A DNA stretch of 64,000 nt from Gemmatimonadaceae bacterium (GTDB taxonomy: Bacteria > Gemmatimonadota > Gemmatimonadetes > Gemmatimonadales > Gemmatimonadaceae): assembly GCA_020852815.1 (NCBI GenBank), contig JADZAN010000024.1, positions 62,001-126,000 of the forward strand, read 5' to 3'. Under the pieces are notes generated by a model. It did no database searches. It was not told the DNA's origin and saw nothing but the letters and a program-made list of their open reading frames with translations. A program made the position numbers and the translations under genes. This document shows positions 36,108 to 43,497 of the stretch, piece by piece (position 1 is the stretch's first letter; each line of letters opens with the position of its first letter).

Positions 36108-36187
36108 CCAATGGCGCCCCGGCGCCATTGGCACTCCCGTCTCCCCCCAGCCTTCGCTGGGGCAAGCTTTCCCCCGTCCCCCGTCTA
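36108..36187. repeat. Full-length modular hairpin/CCCGTC element
   Basis: Module 1: perfect 11-bp stem CCAATGGCGCC/GGCGCCATTGG (36108-36131). Module 2: CACTCCCGTC. Module 3: CCCCAGC-CTTC-GCTGGGG hairpin (36145-36162) and CAAGCTTT. Module 4: CCCCCGTC units. The hrpB stop codon (CTA on the plus strand at 36185) lies at its very end. It also sits at the 3' end of the response-regulator gene and may double as a terminator. Confidence 0.8.
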
Positions 36188-38818
36188 GGGTCTCCGTTTC
36201 GCCCGTCTCGTCGGCTCCGCCTCCAGCGGATCGTCCGGCCACGGATGCCGCGGATACCGCCCCTTCATCTCCTTCTGCACGTCCTTGTACGACGTACGCC
36301 AGAAGCCGGCCAGGTCGCGCGTGACCTGCAGCGGGCGATGCGCGGGGGAGAGCAGGTGCAACACGACCGGGACGCGTCCATCGAGCACGCGCGGCGTGTC
36401 CTCGCACCCAAACATCTCCTGCAGCCGAACGGCGAGGACGGGGGCGGCGGGATCGCCATAGTCGATCGCGATGCGGCTCCCGGTGGGGACCTGGAGATGG
36501 CTCGGCGCCAGCGCATCGAGTGCGCCCCGCTGCTGCCAGGTGAGGCGCCCCAGCAGTAACGACGCGAGGTCGAGCGCGGCCAGGTCGCTGGCGCGTCGCA
36601 CGCCGTCGAGGTGCGGCGCAAGCCACTCGTCGAGCGAGGCGAGGAGTGCGTCGTCGCCCACGTCGGGCCACGCCGCGTCGTGCGCATGGACAAAGGCAAG
36701 GCGCGCGCGCAGGCGCTCGGCTGCGTCGCCCCAGGGCAGCAGCTGCAACCGCGACCGTCGCACCGCCTCGAGCATCGCCTGCGCGACCAGTGCCGGTGAT
36801 GGATCGCGCAACGCGACTTCGCGCAGCGTGATGGCGCCCAGCCGCTCGATGCGAAGTGCGCGCACCGCCAGCGCGGCGTCATCCCACGCCACGCGCTCCT
36901 CGATCGCGATGTCGTCCGCGAAGTCGCGCCGGATGTCGTCCAGCGACAGCGGCGCCGCGAGGAATATCGCGCTCTCGGGGCGCCGCCCATCCGACTCCGC
37001 CACCACCAGGTACTCCGACTGCGCCAGCGCCGGCGAGTCACGCAACACCGCCCCCGTCCCGTTGCGCAGGAGATATCGCCCGCTCCCTGCATCGCGTCGT
37101 TGGGCCACACGGTCCGGATACGCCAGCGCCAGCACCCTCCCCGCCTCGGCGAGATCGCCGCTATCGACAGGCACCTCGCGCAGCGAGCGCCCCTCCGTAC
37201 CGCCCCCCATCTCCCGCCACCACGCATTCGCCTCCTCACGCGCGCGCATCGCCGCCTCCCGCACCACCCGCATCCCATGCACCTCCGCCGGCAGCCGCTC
37301 CCCCCGCCGCAACGCCCGCAGCAACTCCAACCGCGACCGAACATCCGCGTCATGGAGGTGGCCGGCCCCCTCCCCCCGCAGGATGTCCCGCTCACCCAGG
37401 AGCCCCGCGATGTCACAGGCGAGCCGCAGGCTCGCACTCCCGTCCCCCGTCCCCCGTCCCCCGTCCGCCCTTAACAGCATGTGCCCCACCCGCGGATGCA
37501 CGCCGAGCGCCGCCATGCGCTTCCCGTGTGGCGTGATGCGCCCTGCATTGTCCATCGCCCCCAGCCACTGCAACAGCTCGCGCGCCAACGCCATCGCCGC
37601 CGCAGGCGGAACGACGAGCCACGCCAGCTCTCCTACGTCGTGCACACCGGCAGTTGCAAGCTCCAACGCCAGCGGCGCCAGGTCGGCCTCGGCAATCTCC
37701 GGCACCGTATACGGTACCAGCCCCGCGTGTTCCTCGATGGCCCACAACCGATAGACCACACCCGGCGCCAGGCGTCCTGCCCGCCCCGCGCGCTGCTCGG
37801 CCGACGCGCGCGAGACGCGCACCGTCTCCAGCCGCGTCATCCCCACCTGCGGCGCGAAGCGCGCCACGCGTGCCAGCCCGCTGTCCACCACGCAGCGCAC
37901 CCCCTCGATGGTGAGCGACGACTCGGCGATCGACGTGGCGAGGACTACCTTGCGCTGTCCCGGGGGCGACGGCGCGATGGCCCGGTCCTGCTGGTCAAAC
38001 GAGAGGTTGCCGTAGAGCGGACAGACCGCGATGCCGCTGCCTAACGGCGACTCCGCCAGGCGGTCGGCCACGCGGTGTATCTCCCCCTGCCCGGGGAGGA
38101 AGGCGAGCACGTCACCTTCCGTCTCGCGCAACGCCAGGCGCACCGCCGCAGCCATCGCCCCCTCGAGGCGCTCGTCGCTACGGCGCGGGAGCCAGCGCAC
38201 CTCGACCGGGAAAAGGCGTCCCTCGCTGCTCACGATCGGCGCACGGCCTAACAAGCGGGCAATCGGCTCGCCATCCAGCGTCGCCGACATCACCAGGATG
38301 CGCAGGTCGTCGCGCACCAGCAGCTGCGAGTGGCGCGTGAGCGCGAGACCGAGGTCGGCGTGCAGCGATCGCTCGTGGAACTCGTCGAAGATCACCAACC
38401 CGACCCCGCCCAGCGTAGGGTCGCTGTTGAGCATGCGCGTGAGCACCCCTTCGGTGACGACCTCCACCTGCGTCCGCACCCCCACCCGCGTGTCACGCCG
38501 CACGCGATACCCCACCGACGCCGCGATCGGCTCTCCCAACAGTTGCGCCATCCGATGCGCCGCCGCGCGCGCCGCCAGCCGCCGCGGCTCGAGCATCACG
38601 ATCTTCGCACCGCGCAACCACGGCTCATCACGCAGCGCCAGCGGCACAACGGTCGTCTTCCCCGCCCCCGGCGGCGCCTGCAACACTGCGCACCCGTTCC
38701 CCGCCAGCGCCGAGCGCAGCGCCGGAATCGCCTCGACAATCGGGAGTGGTGGCGGTGAGAAGGAGCGCACAGTTTGGGGAAGGGAGTGGAGGAGAAAGGT
38801 AGACGCCCGCTCGCCCAC
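36185..38818 (-). CDS. hrpB: ATP-dependent helicase HrpB
   Basis: 877 aa as drawn from GTG; a GTG at 38770 (giving MRSFSPPPLPIVEA) fits homologues better. DEAH-type helicase motifs: GAGKTTVVP (I), EPRRLAARAAA (Ia), DEFHERS (II), MSATLDG (III), AEQRAGRAGR (VI). The HrpB C-terminal domain follows, with ending RYPRHPWPDDPLEA. RNA/DNA helicase of uncertain role. About residues 450-465 (GGRGTGDGSASLRL) are encoded by a CCCGTC repeat element, and the 3' end lies in another one. The 5' 390 bp are duplicated, together with the start of fpg, at 42193-42658. Confidence 0.93.
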   Translation of the reverse strand: MGERASTFLLHSLPQTVRSFSPPPLPIVEAIPALRSALAGNGCAVLQAPPGAGKTTVVPLALRDEPWLRGAKIVMLEPRRLAARAAAHRMAQLLGEPIAASVGYRVRRDTRVGVRTQVEVVTEGVLTRMLNSDPTLGGVGLVIFDEFHERSLHADLGLALTRHSQLLVRDDLRILVMSATLDGEPIARLLGRAPIVSSEGRLFPVEVRWLPRRSDERLEGAMAAAVRLALRETEGDVLAFLPGQGEIHRVADRLAESPLGSGIAVCPLYGNLSFDQQDRAIAPSPPGQRKVVLATSIAESSLTIEGVRCVVDSGLARVARFAPQVGMTRLETVRVSRASAEQRAGRAGRLAPGVVYRLWAIEEHAGLVPYTVPEIAEADLAPLALELATAGVHDVGELAWLVVPPAAAMALARELLQWLGAMDNAGRITPHGKRMAALGVHPRVGHMLLRADGGRGTGDGSASLRLACDIAGLLGERDILRGEGAGHLHDADVRSRLELLRALRRGERLPAEVHGMRVVREAAMRAREEANAWWREMGGGTEGRSLREVPVDSGDLAEAGRVLALAYPDRVAQRRDAGSGRYLLRNGTGAVLRDSPALAQSEYLVVAESDGRRPESAIFLAAPLSLDDIRRDFADDIAIEERVAWDDAALAVRALRIERLGAITLREVALRDPSPALVAQAMLEAVRRSRLQLLPWGDAAERLRARLAFVHAHDAAWPDVGDDALLASLDEWLAPHLDGVRRASDLAALDLASLLLGRLTWQQRGALDALAPSHLQVPTGSRIAIDYGDPAAPVLAVRLQEMFGCEDTPRVLDGRVPVVLHLLSPAHRPLQVTRDLAGFWRTSYKDVQKEMKGRYPRHPWPDDPLEAEPTRRAKRRP
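37419..37466. repeat. Hairpin plus CCCGTC element inside hrpB
   Basis: GCGAGCC-GCA-GGCTCGC (37419-37435), a perfect 7-bp stem, directly followed by ACTCCCGTC and three CCCCGTC units. It lies within the hrpB reading frame on the opposite strand and keeps the frame open as a Gly-rich insert. Confidence 0.8.
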
Positions 38819-39022
38819 CCGCCCCCTCGCTCCCAGCTCCCTACGGCAGTCCTCTCCTCCTCTCGTCCTCTCCGCAGGCGATGCCTGAACTCCCCGACGT
38901 CGCCGTCTACTGCGAAGCGCTCCGACGCCACGTCGTCGGTCACGAGCTCACGCGCGTGCGCCTGGCCAACCCGTTCCTGCTGCGCTCCGTCGCGCCGCCC
39001 ATCGATGCGATCGTCGGGCGCA
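38636..39022. repeat. Segmental duplication, left copy (hrpB start and fpg start)
   Basis: Matches 42193-42658 with scattered substitutions. It covers the first ~180 bp of hrpB, the intergenic leader and the first ~47 codons of fpg. Identity stops after GTCGGGCGCA in both copies. The two copies flank the foreign 3.1 kb segment. Confidence 0.9.
38881..39022 (+). pseudogene. Truncated fpg (5' part only)
   Basis: Starts with ATG and encodes MPELPDVAVYCEALRRHVVG and onward to about residue 47 (AIVGR), nearly identical to the intact Fpg at 42516, then runs into unrelated sequence. It lacks the rest of the N-terminal domain, the H2TH motif and the zinc finger, so it cannot be functional. It remains directly divergent to the intact hrpB, marking the ancestral hrpB-fpg order. 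Confidence 0.9.
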
Positions 39023-39778
39023 GCGTGCCCGGTCCGAGCCCCCAAGTAGCGGCTGAACTCCACAATCAGCGTCAAACCCGTCATGGAACGCGACAGCGCC
39101 TACCTGCTCCGATCGGTAGGTACGCGACTCGTTCGTGTGCATCCAGCCTCCTGCATGGTCCGGACAGGTTGGCCGTGGTGCGTTGCGCTCTCGTGATGGC
39201 GTTCAGCTTGGCTCAGAGCTCACACTATCCGTCGGCAGTTCATCACTCGCTGCAACGATCGCCTCATCGATAAGGGGGAAAGACGCTTCGTTCATGTTAC
39301 TGCGCCCTTTCCGTTTCTGCTTCCAGAGTCTCGACAGCAGCAAGGCGACGAACGAGCTCAGCACTGGGATGCGAGGCGTACATATCGGCTGCCGCGCCAG
39401 CCTACACATTGGCAGCCACATCAGAATCATTGCGCTCGTGGAAGAAGCCTCTTGACGCGCTTCGCCATGTCCGTTACAGTGATCGCGCCACCCCGCCTGG
39501 GAAGACGTGTCGACAGGTCGAGCGCAGATACCGCTCAGTCCGACAACCCCATGGGGCTGTAGTGCAACTGCGTTGCGCGTGAGGTTGCGCCGCATTGCGC
39601 ACCTAGGCACGCGTTGCGCACGCGAGAAAGTCGCGCGCTACTAGGAGGCGCGTAACGCAAGCCGGATGTTGTGCTTGGGACATCGGCTCATGCGTTGCTT
39701 GGTGTGGCGTGCCGTGAGAGGTGCGACAAGGGTTGTCGAGCGAGCGCGAGGTTCTAGAACTCATTCCATGAGGAGCTT
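39023..39778. other. Non-coding left part of the foreign segment
   Basis: Base composition is clearly less GC-rich than the flanks. No gene can be assigned with confidence. A minus-strand frame at 39203-39430 (76 codons, a hydrophobic stretch followed by KQKRKGR) is the best coding candidate but has no recognisable relatives or ribosome-binding site. TTGCGC occurs at 39573, 39585, 39595 and 39614, possibly an operator cluster. GAGGAG lies 6 nt before the ATG of the next gene. Confidence 0.4.
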
Positions 39779-40060
39779 ATGCGCAAGATGTCGCGAGCTG
39801 ATGCACTAGCGTCAGCAGTTGTTGCAGTAGGCGCAGTTCTCACTCTTCTAACGCCCTCACCCTCTCGGGCGGACGTTCAGTGGTCCGGTGGATGCGACTG
39901 GTGCATTACGAATTGCCAGGCGGCTTCAGGCAACTTCTGTTCGAATGTCTCGGGAAGTTGTGGGGGAGGCGGCGGCCAATGCATTTCCGGCTTGTGCTAT
40001 GGCGCCTACTTCGGAACGTACAACTACACTATTCGGTGCAACGCTCGCCCACCAGCATAG
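39779..40060 (+). CDS. Small secreted cysteine-rich peptide precursor
   Basis: 93 aa. Signal peptide of about 31 residues (basic MRKMSRADA, hydrophobic core, PSRAD cleavage). The mature ~62 residues hold eight cysteines, beginning with SGGCDWCITNCQ and including a GGGGG linker. Eight Cys and the downstream DsbA-like gene suggest four disulfides. Good GAGGAG ribosome-binding site. I know no exact family. The arrangement recalls Bacteroidetes NVEALA peptides, which are small exported Cys-containing proteins beside six-bladed propeller lipoproteins; the similarity is of context, not sequence. Confidence 0.75.
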   Translation: MRKMSRADALASAVVAVGAVLTLLTPSPSRADVQWSGGCDWCITNCQAASGNFCSNVSGSCGGGGGQCISGLCYGAYFGTYNYTIRCNARPPA

Positions 40061-40220
40061 TCACGACTCCTTGTCTCGCGATTCGTGAACACACGGCGTG
40101 TCTGCGAGAACTCGACGAACCAACGAACGATGCTCGTACTCGCGCCGCCAGCCGCAGCGGCTCGCCGCGTTTCGGAGCCGATCGACTCGAGTTGGTGAAC
40201 TGCCTGCCAGGAGCATTTGC

Positions 40221-40907
40221 ATGCCGCAGGGCTCAAGCAACGCCGGAGCGCTTCAGACCTATGTGCTCACAGGTGCCGCAGTGCTGATGGCGATCAGCGT
40301 CGCGTACAGGACGTTCGCGCCGGTTACGCAGCGCCAATCGGGACCTCCGCCAATGTCGGCCCGGCCGGTCCCCGAATGGAAGTCACTCGTGGCGAGGGGA
40401 CTCTCTTTGGGAGATTCTACGGCGCCCATAACCGTTGCGGTGTTCACCGATCTGCAATGTCCGTTCTGCATGGCCTTCCATCGATCCCTCGACTCGGCCC
40501 TGAAGAATAGCCCGAGCAGCTTCCGTGTCGTTTACTTGCCCTTTCCCCTAAGTGTGCACCCGCACGCAACAACTGCCGCGCTAGCGACTGAGTGCTTCGC
40601 CCGGCAGGCGCAGGTAGCCGAGTGGTTTACTACGGTGTACGCCCAGCAGGAGATGATAGAGTCCAAGTCGATGGCTACATTCGCACTTGAAGCAGGCGTG
40701 TCGGACACAGCGGAGTTCTCCAAGTGCATGTCAACGCCCTCGGTAGCTGAGAAGGTGAGAGTGCTCGTTCGCGATGCCGAGAGGCTTGGCGTGAAAGCCA
40801 CGCCCACACTACTTGTGAATCAGTGGCTGATAGATGGGGGCGTGCAGTCACCATATGATCTTCAGCGAGTCATCGCAAATGTTGCTCAGAACAAACGGCC
40901 CCTGTAG
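40221..40907 (+). CDS. DsbA-like thiol-disulfide oxidoreductase, membrane-anchored
   Basis: 228 aa. AGGAG 9 nt upstream of the ATG. One N-terminal membrane helix (TYVLTGAAVLMAISVAYRTF), then DSTAPITVAVFTDLQCPFCM with the CPFC active site, a helical insert, and ATPTLLVNQWLIDG with the cis-Pro. Closest to the DsbA/Thioredoxin_4 type acting in the periplasm. It lies 160 bp after the Cys-rich peptide and 5 bp before the propeller lipoprotein, so its client may be the peptide. Confidence 0.85.
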   Translation: MPQGSSNAGALQTYVLTGAAVLMAISVAYRTFAPVTQRQSGPPPMSARPVPEWKSLVARGLSLGDSTAPITVAVFTDLQCPFCMAFHRSLDSALKNSPSSFRVVYLPFPLSVHPHATTAALATECFARQAQVAEWFTTVYAQQEMIESKSMATFALEAGVSDTAEFSKCMSTPSVAEKVRVLVRDAERLGVKATPTLLVNQWLIDGGVQSPYDLQRVIANVAQNKRPL

Positions 40908-40912
40908 AGGAT

Positions 40913-42073
40913 ATGAGGGCGCTACACCAGTCGGCTGTGTTGGTGATACTGCTCGCCACAGGATGCACGGGCGATCACCCCAGAACTCTGAAGCGCACTC
41001 TGACGCTGCGCGATAGCGGTGGAATCGTCATCGCCGAACAGGAATCGGTCGAACAGTTCACAGCGAAAGTGGTGCTGTCGACGCGTCCGTTTCTTGACCT
41101 CGGCGGCGTCAGCGAAAACCCGGATGCCGAACTTAGCCCTCAAGCGCCTTGGCTTGAGCCAGTCCGCTTGTCGGACGGTAGGTACGCCGTTGCTGACATG
41201 CAGCGTATCGCGTTGTTTAGCGCCGACGGCCGGTTCATCAAGGGCGTAGGCTCGCAGGGAGATGGACCTGGAGAGTTTCAGCAGGTCGGCAGAGTGTGCG
41301 TGCTTCCCGACGACTCATTGCTCGCGATCAGCGAGAACGATGGGCGGCTTATCCTGTGGGACAGCGCGGGGCGTCACGTGGCCACGTATGCACGCGTCGG
41401 TCCAGTATTGATCGACTCGTGCTTCGCTGACGGCTCTGTCATAGTCCCGACGATCGAGGGCGGCGCGCCGGGAGACTCGGACATGAGCGCGCAGCGTGGT
41501 ACTGACCAGAGTCGTGTTGCGTACTATCGGGTGCGGCGAGATGGCGCCGTCATCGCGAACCTCGGCGAGTTTCCGCGATCGCGTCTCGATGCCGAAGTGA
41601 GCTACGTCGTACAAGTGTACTATGCACACGGACGCTTGATTGTTGCTGATCCGCGCTCCTTTCAGTTGCGCCAGTACGATACAACTGGCACTCTCCGCAG
41701 CATTGTGCGATTGACCAAACCTCCGCCTCCGCATCGACGGCCGGTATTCGCGCGACCGCGCCCTGGCCGGGCCCCTTTCTCTGTCACGGCCCCCGGAGTG
41801 TCATCCGCTGCTCAGGCCACCGAGCCTGCGTTCGGCAGAGTACTCGTGGATAGTCTGGGGCGCTACTGGATACAGGGAGGCGATACAGAGACGGAGAAGT
41901 GGACATTCATAGATGCAAAGCACGGCATTGGTGCGCGCCTGGCATTCCCGATACTCAAGGATCGCGTGACATCGCGGATCGTGAGCGCGGCAACTGATCA
42001 CGTCGTTGTGCTTTCGTATGATGACGATGGTGCGCCGCACTTGAGGTTCTGTCGATTTGCGGTGGTGCCGTAA
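40913..42073 (+). CDS. Six-bladed beta-propeller lipoprotein
   Basis: 386 aa. Signal SAVLVILLATGC (lipobox TGC). Repeating blade motifs: RLSDGRYAVADMQRIALFSA, GRFIKGVGSQGDGPGEFQQ, CVLPDDSLLAISEND, LILWDSAGRHVATYA. The GxGxGPGEF motif is typical of the six-bladed propeller proteins found with small exported peptides in Bacteroidetes and Gemmatimonadota. Only 5 bp from the DsbA gene stop. A receptor or binding role for the peptide is conjecture. Codon usage matches the foreign segment rather than the core. Confidence 0.75.
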   Translation: MRALHQSAVLVILLATGCTGDHPRTLKRTLTLRDSGGIVIAEQESVEQFTAKVVLSTRPFLDLGGVSENPDAELSPQAPWLEPVRLSDGRYAVADMQRIALFSADGRFIKGVGSQGDGPGEFQQVGRVCVLPDDSLLAISENDGRLILWDSAGRHVATYARVGPVLIDSCFADGSVIVPTIEGGAPGDSDMSAQRGTDQSRVAYYRVRRDGAVIANLGEFPRSRLDAEVSYVVQVYYAHGRLIVADPRSFQLRQYDTTGTLRSIVRLTKPPPPHRRPVFARPRPGRAPFSVTAPGVSSAAQATEPAFGRVLVDSLGRYWIQGGDTETEKWTFIDAKHGIGARLAFPILKDRVTSRIVSAATDHVVVLSYDDDGAPHLRFCRFAVVP

Positions 42074-42144
42074 CCGTTGGCGCCTGGTCCGTGGGCTTTC
42101 GAGGCCTCGACGAGAGGAAATCTGAGCCACAGCGCCGAGAGCAG

Positions 42145-42408
42145 CTCCGTCCCCACCGGTGTGAGGCGCCGCACGCGATAGCCTACCGACGCCGCCAGCG
42201 GCACAACGGTCGTCTTCCCCGCCCCCGGCGGCGCCTGCAACACCGCGCACCCGCTCCCCGCCAGCGCCGAGCGCAGCGCCGGAAGCGCCTCGACAATCGG
42301 GAGTGGTGGCGGTGAGAAGGAGCGCACAGTTTGGGGAAGGGAGTGGAAGAGAAAGGTAGACGCCCTCTCTCCGACCCGCCCCCTCGCTTCCAGCCTCCGC
42401 TGCGGCAC
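42145..42408 (-). pseudogene. Truncated hrpB 5' fragment with internal deletion
   Basis: Encodes GERASTFLFHSLPQTVRSF and APPGAGKTTVVPLA as in intact HrpB, then jumps to ASVGYRVRR, skipping about 118 bp (39 residues, including motif Ia) present at 38521-38638. Homology ends shortly after. Lies just downstream of the propeller gene and upstream of intact fpg. Confidence 0.9.
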
Positions 42409-42658
42409 GCCTCTCGTCCCCAGCCTCCGCTGGGGCAGGCCTCTCGTCCCCAGCTTTCGCTGGGGCAGGCCTCTCGTCCTCTCGTCTTCTCGTCTTCTCG
42501 TCCTCTCCGCAGGCCTTGCCTGAACTCCCCGACGTCGCCGTCTACTGCGAAGCGCTCCGACGCCATGTCGTCGGTCACGAGCTCACGCGCCTGCGCCTGG
42601 CCAACCCGTTCCTGCTGCGATCCGTCACCCCACGCATCGATGCGATCGTCGGGCGCAC
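42193..42658. repeat. Segmental duplication, right copy
   Basis: Counterpart of 38636-39022. It is longer because the hrpB-fpg leader has three 30-bp units (42391-42480) where the left copy has at most one degenerate unit. Confidence 0.9.
42391..42480 (+). repeat. Three 30-bp tandem repeats in the fpg leader
   Basis: Each unit begins CAGCYTYCGCTGSGGCA and ends CTCTCGTCC. The junctions form CCCCAGC/GCTGGGG hairpins like module 3 of the elements at 36145, 43455 and 44147. GTCYTCYC 8-bp units follow until shortly before the fpg start. Confidence 0.9.
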
Positions 42659-43403
42659 GGTCCACGACGTGCGGCGTATGGGCAAGCGCATCGTTCTCGG
42701 CTTCGGCGACGAGCTCTATCTCGTCATCCACTTGATGATTGCCGGGCGCTTACGCTGGCGCCCGGTGGGCGGGAAGAAGCTCCCGGCCAAACTCGGCATT
42801 GCCTGGTTCGACTTTCCGCACGGCGTCCTGATCCTCACCGAGGCCGGCACCAAGCGGCGCGCCTCGCTCACGTTGGTGCAGGGCGAGGCGTCACTCGAAC
42901 AATTCGACCGCGGCGGACTCGAACCACTCACCGCCTCGCGCGACGCCTTCGCCGAGCGGCTCCGCCGGGAGAACCATACGCTCAAGCGCGCGCTCACCGA
43001 CCCGCGCCTCTTGAGCGGCATCGGCAACGCCTTCTCGGACGAGATCCTCCACCGGGCCCGCCTCTCGCCGCTGCAGCTCACGTCGCGCCTCGATGACGAC
43101 GAGGTGGAGCGCTTGCACCTGGCGATCGTCGCCGTGCTGGAAGAGTGGATCCAGCGCACGCGCGACGAAGTGGGTGACGGCTTCCCCGAGACGGTGTCGG
43201 CCTTTCGCCCCGGGATGGCGGTGCACGGACGCTTTGGCCAACCCTGTCCCGACTGCGGTGCCCCGGTCCAGCGCATCCGATACGCCAGCAACGAGACCAA
43301 CTACTGCGCCCGCTGCCAGAACGAAGGGCGCATCCTCGCCGACCGCGCCCTCTCTCGCTTGTTGAGGGAAGACTTCCCCCGCACCTTGGCCGACGACTCG
43401 TAG
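42516..43403 (+). CDS. fpg: Formamidopyrimidine-DNA glycosylase (MutM/Fpg)
   Basis: 295 aa from a TTG (Met-Pro-Glu-Leu-Pro; Pro1/Glu2 catalytic after Met removal). H2TH region with LTDPRLLSGIGNAFSDEIL, and a C-terminal zinc finger CPDC...CARC. Removes oxidised purines such as 8-oxoG and nicks the strand. This is the intact copy; the fragment at 38881 has ATG at the same position, so the functional gene uses the weaker start. Its leader is built of repeats with no clear Shine-Dalgarno beyond CAGG. Confidence 0.93.
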   Translation: MPELPDVAVYCEALRRHVVGHELTRLRLANPFLLRSVTPRIDAIVGRTVHDVRRMGKRIVLGFGDELYLVIHLMIAGRLRWRPVGGKKLPAKLGIAWFDFPHGVLILTEAGTKRRASLTLVQGEASLEQFDRGGLEPLTASRDAFAERLRRENHTLKRALTDPRLLSGIGNAFSDEILHRARLSPLQLTSRLDDDEVERLHLAIVAVLEEWIQRTRDEVGDGFPETVSAFRPGMAVHGRFGQPCPDCGAPVQRIRYASNETNYCARCQNEGRILADRALSRLLREDFPRTLADDS

Positions 43404-43423: not shown

Positions 43424-43497
43424 CGCGCGGCAAAGCCGCGCGCACTCCCGTCCCCCCCCAGCCTTCGCTGGGGCAAGCTTTCCCCGTCCCCCGTCCT
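43424..43497 (+). repeat. Full-length modular element before the DinB-like gene
   Basis: GCGCGGC-AAA-GCCGCGC stem (43425-43441), CACTCCCGTC, CCCCAGC-CTTC-GCTGGGG hairpin (43455-43472), CAAGCTTT, CCCCGTC units, and the ATG at 43501. Same order as 36108-36187, with a different first stem. Confidence 0.85.

Follow-up and report, generated by a model that had tools for sequence, protein, structure and literature searches.

A group of three genes in the genome of a Gemmatimonadaceae bacterium raises a question about exported peptides; namely, whether a small exported protein with eight cysteines, a thiol oxidase and a propeller lipoprotein encoded side by side belong to one system or are unrelated genes that share a piece of foreign DNA. 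Members of the phylum Gemmatimonadota abound in soil and have seldom been brought into culture, and what they secrete has been little studied. We investigated the genes in a stretch of DNA of 64,000 nucleotides (the window) and their counterparts in other genomes of the phylum. From genomic comparison, we consider it probable that these genes represent one instance of a system, spread across the Gemmatimonadota, that makes and folds disulfide-bonded exported mini-proteins and hands them over to a partner on the outer-membrane side.

Three genes in an insert between hrpB and fpg

The earlier note on this DNA had described three consecutive same-strand genes, for an eight-cysteine small exported protein, a CPFC oxidoreductase and a propeller lipoprotein, and a scan of all ORFs recovered each of them in place (Table 1); a codon-usage gene caller had missed these genes. 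The gap of 5 bp that it had counted between the last two also holds, with 5 nt between the DsbA stop and the propeller start. The N-terminal end of the peptide precursor has positive charge followed by a hydrophobic core, with likely cleavage after SRA31, and all eight cysteines lie in the 62-aa mature part. GAGGAG stands just 5′ of the ATG at a spacing of only 3 nt, so a second ATG at 39788 is a possible start. The DsbA gene begins at ATG 40221 with AGGAG upstream, and its product has one N-terminal membrane segment, the CPFC motif (40458–40469) and Pfam matches to Thioredoxin_4 (PF13462, 1.1e-20) and DSBA (PF01323, 9e-16). Its predicted thioredoxin fold, CPxC and TP loop place it in the Thioredoxin_4/DsbA oxidase family. 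The third product matches PF17170, ‘6-bladed beta-propeller’ (2.2e-6, 27.6 bits against a curated cut-off of 22.9), and carries a lipobox-like LLATGC with the Cys codon at 40964–40966; its AlphaFold model (pLDDT 81, pTM 0.80) retrieves NHL six-bladed propellers in Foldseek at 3e-14.

The segment that holds these genes is an insertion between hrpB and fpg, because the two flanking genes are adjacent, with a single junction copy and without the insert, in a genome of the same genus (G002) and in G007. To call the segment foreign, as the note did, was fair: its GC content is 60.2%, compared with 69–70% in the flanks, and it is absent from the hrpB–fpg junction of the congener. The left fpg copy is truncated and forms the edge of the insert; the right fpg is intact. 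The duplicated hrpB–fpg flanks are consistent with single-crossover integration, which would leave such copies. A GC-rich interspersed repeat resembling CCCAGCCTTCGCTGGGGCAAGC occurs at 42380–42510, 36131–36181 and 43442–43492, and dozens of copies of it are found in the genome of the window and in two congeners. Rfam gave no match, and promoter and terminator scans stayed at chance level.

Table 1 Features of the insert and its flanks, in window positions
Feature	Position	Strand	Basis
Left partial copy of hrpB 5′ end, intergenic region and fpg 5′ end	38480..39033		Repeat search and flank-versus-flank blastn, 83–96%
Inserted segment, ~3.1 kb, GC 60.2%	39034..42150		Composition; hrpB–fpg adjacency elsewhere
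Eight-cysteine exported peptide precursor gene, 93 aa	39779..40060	+	ORF; profile match; shuffling controls
Peptide leader	~39779–39871	+	Sequence
Mature part of the peptide	~39872–40057	+	Sequence
Membrane-anchored DsbA-like thiol oxidase gene, 228 aa	40221..40907	+	Pfam Thioredoxin_4/DSBA; profile; tree
Six-bladed NHL-type beta-propeller lipoprotein gene, 386 aa	40913..42073	+	PF17170; AlphaFold; Foldseek
Right partial copy of hrpB 5′ end and fpg 5′ end, running into intact fpg	42151..42666		Repeat search and blastn

Peptides and their neighbouring DsbA proteins

A direct protein search with the window peptide in 395 Gemmatimonadota genomes returned only near-chance matches and no clear relative, and we therefore relied on profiles and gene position. 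Close relatives of the DsbA from related genomes, and one from a second locus in the genome of the window (L056), are flanked by quite different short signal-bearing ORFs with 6–10 cysteines. A profile seeded with an alignment of nine DsbA proteins that have short Cys-rich neighbours was searched in the 395 genomes and found strong matches across them, at E ~1e-50 or better in roughly 70 genomes; about 80 ORFs of this subfamily were taken, with their neighbourhoods, for locus analysis. C76, C79, T190 and P191, which make up the CPxC motif and the TP loop, are invariant in 40 subfamily sequences. Against the PDB, the profile retrieves mainly DsbA/BdbD-type oxidases, and on the strength of these nearest solved relatives the locus DsbA is a putative oxidant of substrate thiols. 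The subfamily resembles these Thioredoxin_4 oxidases in fold, CPxC and TP loop, but is distinct in being membrane-anchored, in a conserved Trp before the domain and in its tie to peptide genes. The in-depth searches covered Gemmatimonadota; among 40 genomes reached via other DsbA loci, a sample that does not extend to Bacteroidota, a strong full-length match was found in only a Gemmatimonadota genome.

The tie to peptide genes was quantified under two rules. By the strict rule (same strand, within 1.6 kb of the DsbA gene, a signal-like start, at least 5 Cys and at most 130 aa), a peptide ORF adjoins the DsbA ORF in 56 of 80 cases; by the relaxed rule, for which 4 Cys suffice and the strand is free, the count is 69 of 80, with about 3 expected. 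Simple criteria for a signal sequence decided which ORF was taken in some cases. Random DNA of the same genomes contains 3 peptide-like ORFs per 340 kb under either rule, and none of 11 other DsbA-like ORFs has a peptide ORF beside it. The 11 of 80 subfamily ORFs that have no peptide by the relaxed rule include some near contig ends. The binomial probability of this recurrence by chance (P < 1e-70) overstates the case, as neighbourhoods in related genomes cannot count as independent; chance is nevertheless untenable as the source of the recurrence because the loci are diverse. According to the earlier note, its idea would fall if other loci with the DsbA–propeller pair had no peptide gene, or if the cysteines were unconserved in homologues; peptides are present at such loci, and the closest share the eight-cysteine framework.

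The peptides themselves form one family. When a profile was built from 12 peptides that adjoin other DsbA genes, with the window peptide left out, it retrieved the window peptide from 16,106 ORFs at 2.6e-6. The match is lost in 1,000 of 1,000 shuffles of the mature part and in as many of the leader, and when the cysteines are held in place 174 of 1,000 shuffles score as high; given these outcomes, the likeness of the window peptide to its relatives is mainly one of leader and Cys framework, which it has in common with the peptides at other DsbA loci. In 200 genomes, a profile built from 20 peptides matched 19 times, always in loci with the DsbA subfamily, propellers or both, and a few of these matches lie outside the set from which the profile was built. 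Of 72 curated peptides, 67 have an even number of cysteines (4, 6, 8 or 10; P = 3e-15), which fits their pairing in disulfides. In every close pair tested dN is lower than dS, with ratios of ~0.3–0.55, which argues that the peptides are translated, constrained and real proteins. Divergence is rapid in the mature part and its Cys framework, and most mature peptides are acidic (median pI 4.1, 87% net negative).

The statement in the note that the peptide matched nothing familiar holds for the whole family: searches of Pfam, NCBIfam and the PDB gave only scattered single matches at 0.001–0.4, which we took as chance, and matches at 0.006 to scorpion toxins and gamma-thionins were set aside in the same way. 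The structure model of the window peptide (pLDDT 74, pTM 0.48) has no match in the PDB. Peptide genes also occur in arrays, with tandem or repeated copies in one locus (L062:7625-8277, L187:1318-1797 and L303:12137-15500), including a CC...CC framework. A small Cys-rich exported ORF with the motif CCxVCxxGKACGDSCI (L253:4956-5147, L272:19317-19526) is also found away from DsbA genes; it was assigned to a different family and left out.

To determine the extent to which peptide type follows the enzyme, we compared it with a tree of the DsbA subfamily, in which the window DsbA sits on a long branch within a supported clade of 24. Peptides of the window type occur at 15 of 24 loci in this clade and at 4 of 54 outside it; once the members used to train the profile are removed, the counts are 6 of 15 and 2 of 52 (P = 0.001). 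None of 300 shuffles gave as few changes in Cys number as the observed arrangement on the tree. This tracking of the DsbA tree by peptide type is what a dedicated enzyme–substrate pair would give, and such a pairing is well supported by genomics. The proposal in the note of a disulfide-rich exported peptide with its own folding enzyme thus gains strong support from the recurrence, the even Cys counts and the co-segregation of peptide type with the DsbA tree.

Several further loci were recorded. The genome of the window has a second one (L055/L056, G000:C42) with an eight-cysteine peptide and a DsbA, on a 30-kb contig that also carries at least five propeller genes and another exported ORF with six cysteines (L056:5191-5367). 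At a third (L299:8287-10941, G000:C24), a DsbA remnant without its N-terminal part is followed by a propeller, and the locus is apparently decayed. A genome in a single contig (L247, G034:C1) has an eight-cysteine peptide, a DsbA and a plug protein. Ten loci (L190, L191, L194, L198, L203, L207, L214, L218, L223 and L224) have a short gene for a PDZ-domain protein no more than 100 bases from that of the DsbA; most of these loci have four-cysteine peptides with Oar-like transporters. MacB-like permeases adjoin a few loci (L061–L063 and L200) and are present in controls too.

Partners encoded by the third gene

The third gene is less constant. The note saw a binder in the propeller, which is a candidate role; across the loci the propeller is one of several exchangeable partners, TonB-plug and outer-membrane proteins being the others. 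Of 77 loci, 39 have only a propeller, 26 only a TonB-plug or outer-membrane protein, 3 both and 9 neither (P = 6e-10, Fisher’s test), although two of the nine have propellers after all (L229 and L254), and the exclusivity may partly reflect taxonomy. By domain searches, the TonB-plug group splits into two families: Oar-like transporters with CarboxypepD_reg, Plug and OMP_b-brl_4 domains (for example, at L062), and proteins with CarboxypepD_reg and a C-terminal TonB Plug in which no barrel was recognised (L185:316-2838 and relatives). The window locus has a propeller and no TonB protein. Many locus propellers overlap the DsbA gene by 4 nt, and a recognisable lipobox is present in only 16 of 54.

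On the DsbA tree, partner type needs at least 17 changes, compared with a minimum of 20 in shuffles, and is therefore partly inherited with the DsbA clade. Within the clade of the window, one peptide type is accompanied now by propellers and now by plug partners, from which we infer that the two kinds of partner do a related job at the outer membrane; the partner may import or display the peptide. The propeller link is weaker than the link between peptide and DsbA, because propellers are common in these genomes without peptides.

A proposed working and its alternatives

In the working that we propose from these sequences, the precursor would be exported by Sec and its leader removed. In the periplasm, the neighbouring DsbA, anchored in the inner membrane and specialised for its type of peptide, would oxidise the cysteines, a step with strong genomic support. 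The folded peptide would then pass to the partner on the outer-membrane side, here the propeller lipoprotein and elsewhere a TonB-plug protein or an Oar-like transporter, which most likely binds, displays or helps to release it at the cell surface. Divergence of the mature part points to action outside the cell, and its fast pace suggests that the peptides act against or among varying partners, for example in competition, recognition or signalling, and not in housekeeping.

Other explanations fit parts of the evidence. In NVEALA systems with BF3164-type propellers, a small exported protein is encoded beside a six-bladed propeller lipoprotein, and the earlier note had drawn attention to these Bacteroidetes pairs. 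The locus shares that layout, its propeller belongs to PF17170, and the Bacteroides exported propeller 4raa BF0058 is among the structure-search matches, all of which might suggest that it is the Gemmatimonadota version of the Bacteroidota pairs (PF14055 with PF15869/PF17170), related by descent. However, PF14055 (NVEALA) is found in 0 of 72 peptides and, under a search that did find it in a Bacteroides control, in 0 of 21 related genomes; PF15869 (the BF3164 family) has no match to the window propeller at E up to 1; and the more constant partner here is a membrane DsbA. The likeness is thus at most one of layout, and descent, largely refuted at the sequence level, is very improbable. We regard as scarcely credible that the peptide is a precursor of a thioether RiPP, for which its shortness and Cys content would otherwise speak, as would the ranthipeptide clusters reported in Gemmatimonadota (PMC11651109): it has a Sec-type leader, its recurring neighbour is a DsbA, no radical SAM gene occurs in the three-gene insert or was recognised among recurring neighbours, and TIGR04117 matches 1 of 72 peptides weakly (0.004). 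That three unrelated genes came together by chance might be argued from the foreign origin of the segment and from peptide relatives that a simple protein search misses, but the recurrence statistics rule it out, the profile and tree results speak against it as well, and we accord it a negligible probability.

The peptide could also be exported as a messenger or scavenger and then be sensed or taken up again, with the propeller or TonB-plug protein on the receptor or importer side and the DsbA only stabilising the ligand. Classical TonB-dependent proteins import, the partner proteins include TonB plug and outer-membrane barrel domains, and mostly acidic mature peptides are unlike cationic membrane-killing ones; yet acidity alone does not discriminate, the neighbourhoods have no recurring gene for signalling or regulation and the window locus does without a TonB protein, which leaves this reading unlikely, though not far-fetched. 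That the peptide is never released, and serves inside the periplasm or envelope in structure, redox chemistry or metal binding, would suit an acidic, Cys-rich product encoded with a membrane oxidase and a lipoprotein, both of them envelope proteins. Rapid change in mature sequences and in their Cys frameworks, and an arrangement in arrays, would be unusual for housekeeping envelope parts, and no conserved metal-site pattern was seen in the peptides; we think retention distinctly improbable.

The reading that we prefer, of a peptide folded by its own DsbA and handed on at the outer membrane, has parallels in known systems. The disulfide bacteriocin sublancin has the gene of the oxidase BdbB beside the peptide gene (PMC4336743), and the activity of EntV requires disulfide formation (PMC6606811). 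The locus peptides resemble these in being small, exported, Cys-containing and oxidase-dependent, a dependence that here is predicted, and the arrangement of bacteriocins with a dedicated oxidase, an oxidase gene beside the peptide gene, recurs at 69 of 80 loci. They differ in a Sec leader, a double-membrane envelope, acidic charge and a propeller or TonB-plug partner; the recurring neighbours include no recognisable peptidase-ABC exporter, glycosyltransferase or immunity gene, and the predicted acidic charge does not favour membrane killing. Oar is a TonB-dependent transporter needed for secretion of PopC in Myxococcus (PMC6434023), and by analogy the partners with CarboxypepD_reg, Plug and barrel domains at 15 other loci are good models for export from the periplasm, as a candidate role; at the window locus a propeller takes their place.

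That a secreted peptide can have an oxidase of its own is a known principle. The peptide family and the DsbA subfamily appear to be undescribed, and a limited search of the open-access literature found no description of the system. A bolder proposal, which we advance tentatively and rate as possible rather than probable, is that Gemmatimonadota have diversified secreted disulfide-stabilised mini-proteins, each with a conserved leader and a variable Cys-framed mature part, that each is folded by its own co-evolving DsbA, and that a partner open to exchange (propeller lipoprotein, Oar-like TonB-dependent transporter or TonB-plug protein) carries it over the outer membrane or displays it there; this would be an undescribed peptide-delivery route. 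A single small ORF without matches thus leads to exported Cys-rich peptides that form a family across the phylum and have a probable oxidase of their own, and the DsbA subfamily provides a genomic handle on hypervariable peptides that sequence search misses. The locus names an enzyme–substrate pair that is open to test, and prompts one to ask whether propellers share with TonB-plug proteins the task of moving a folded peptide, or holding it, at the outer membrane.
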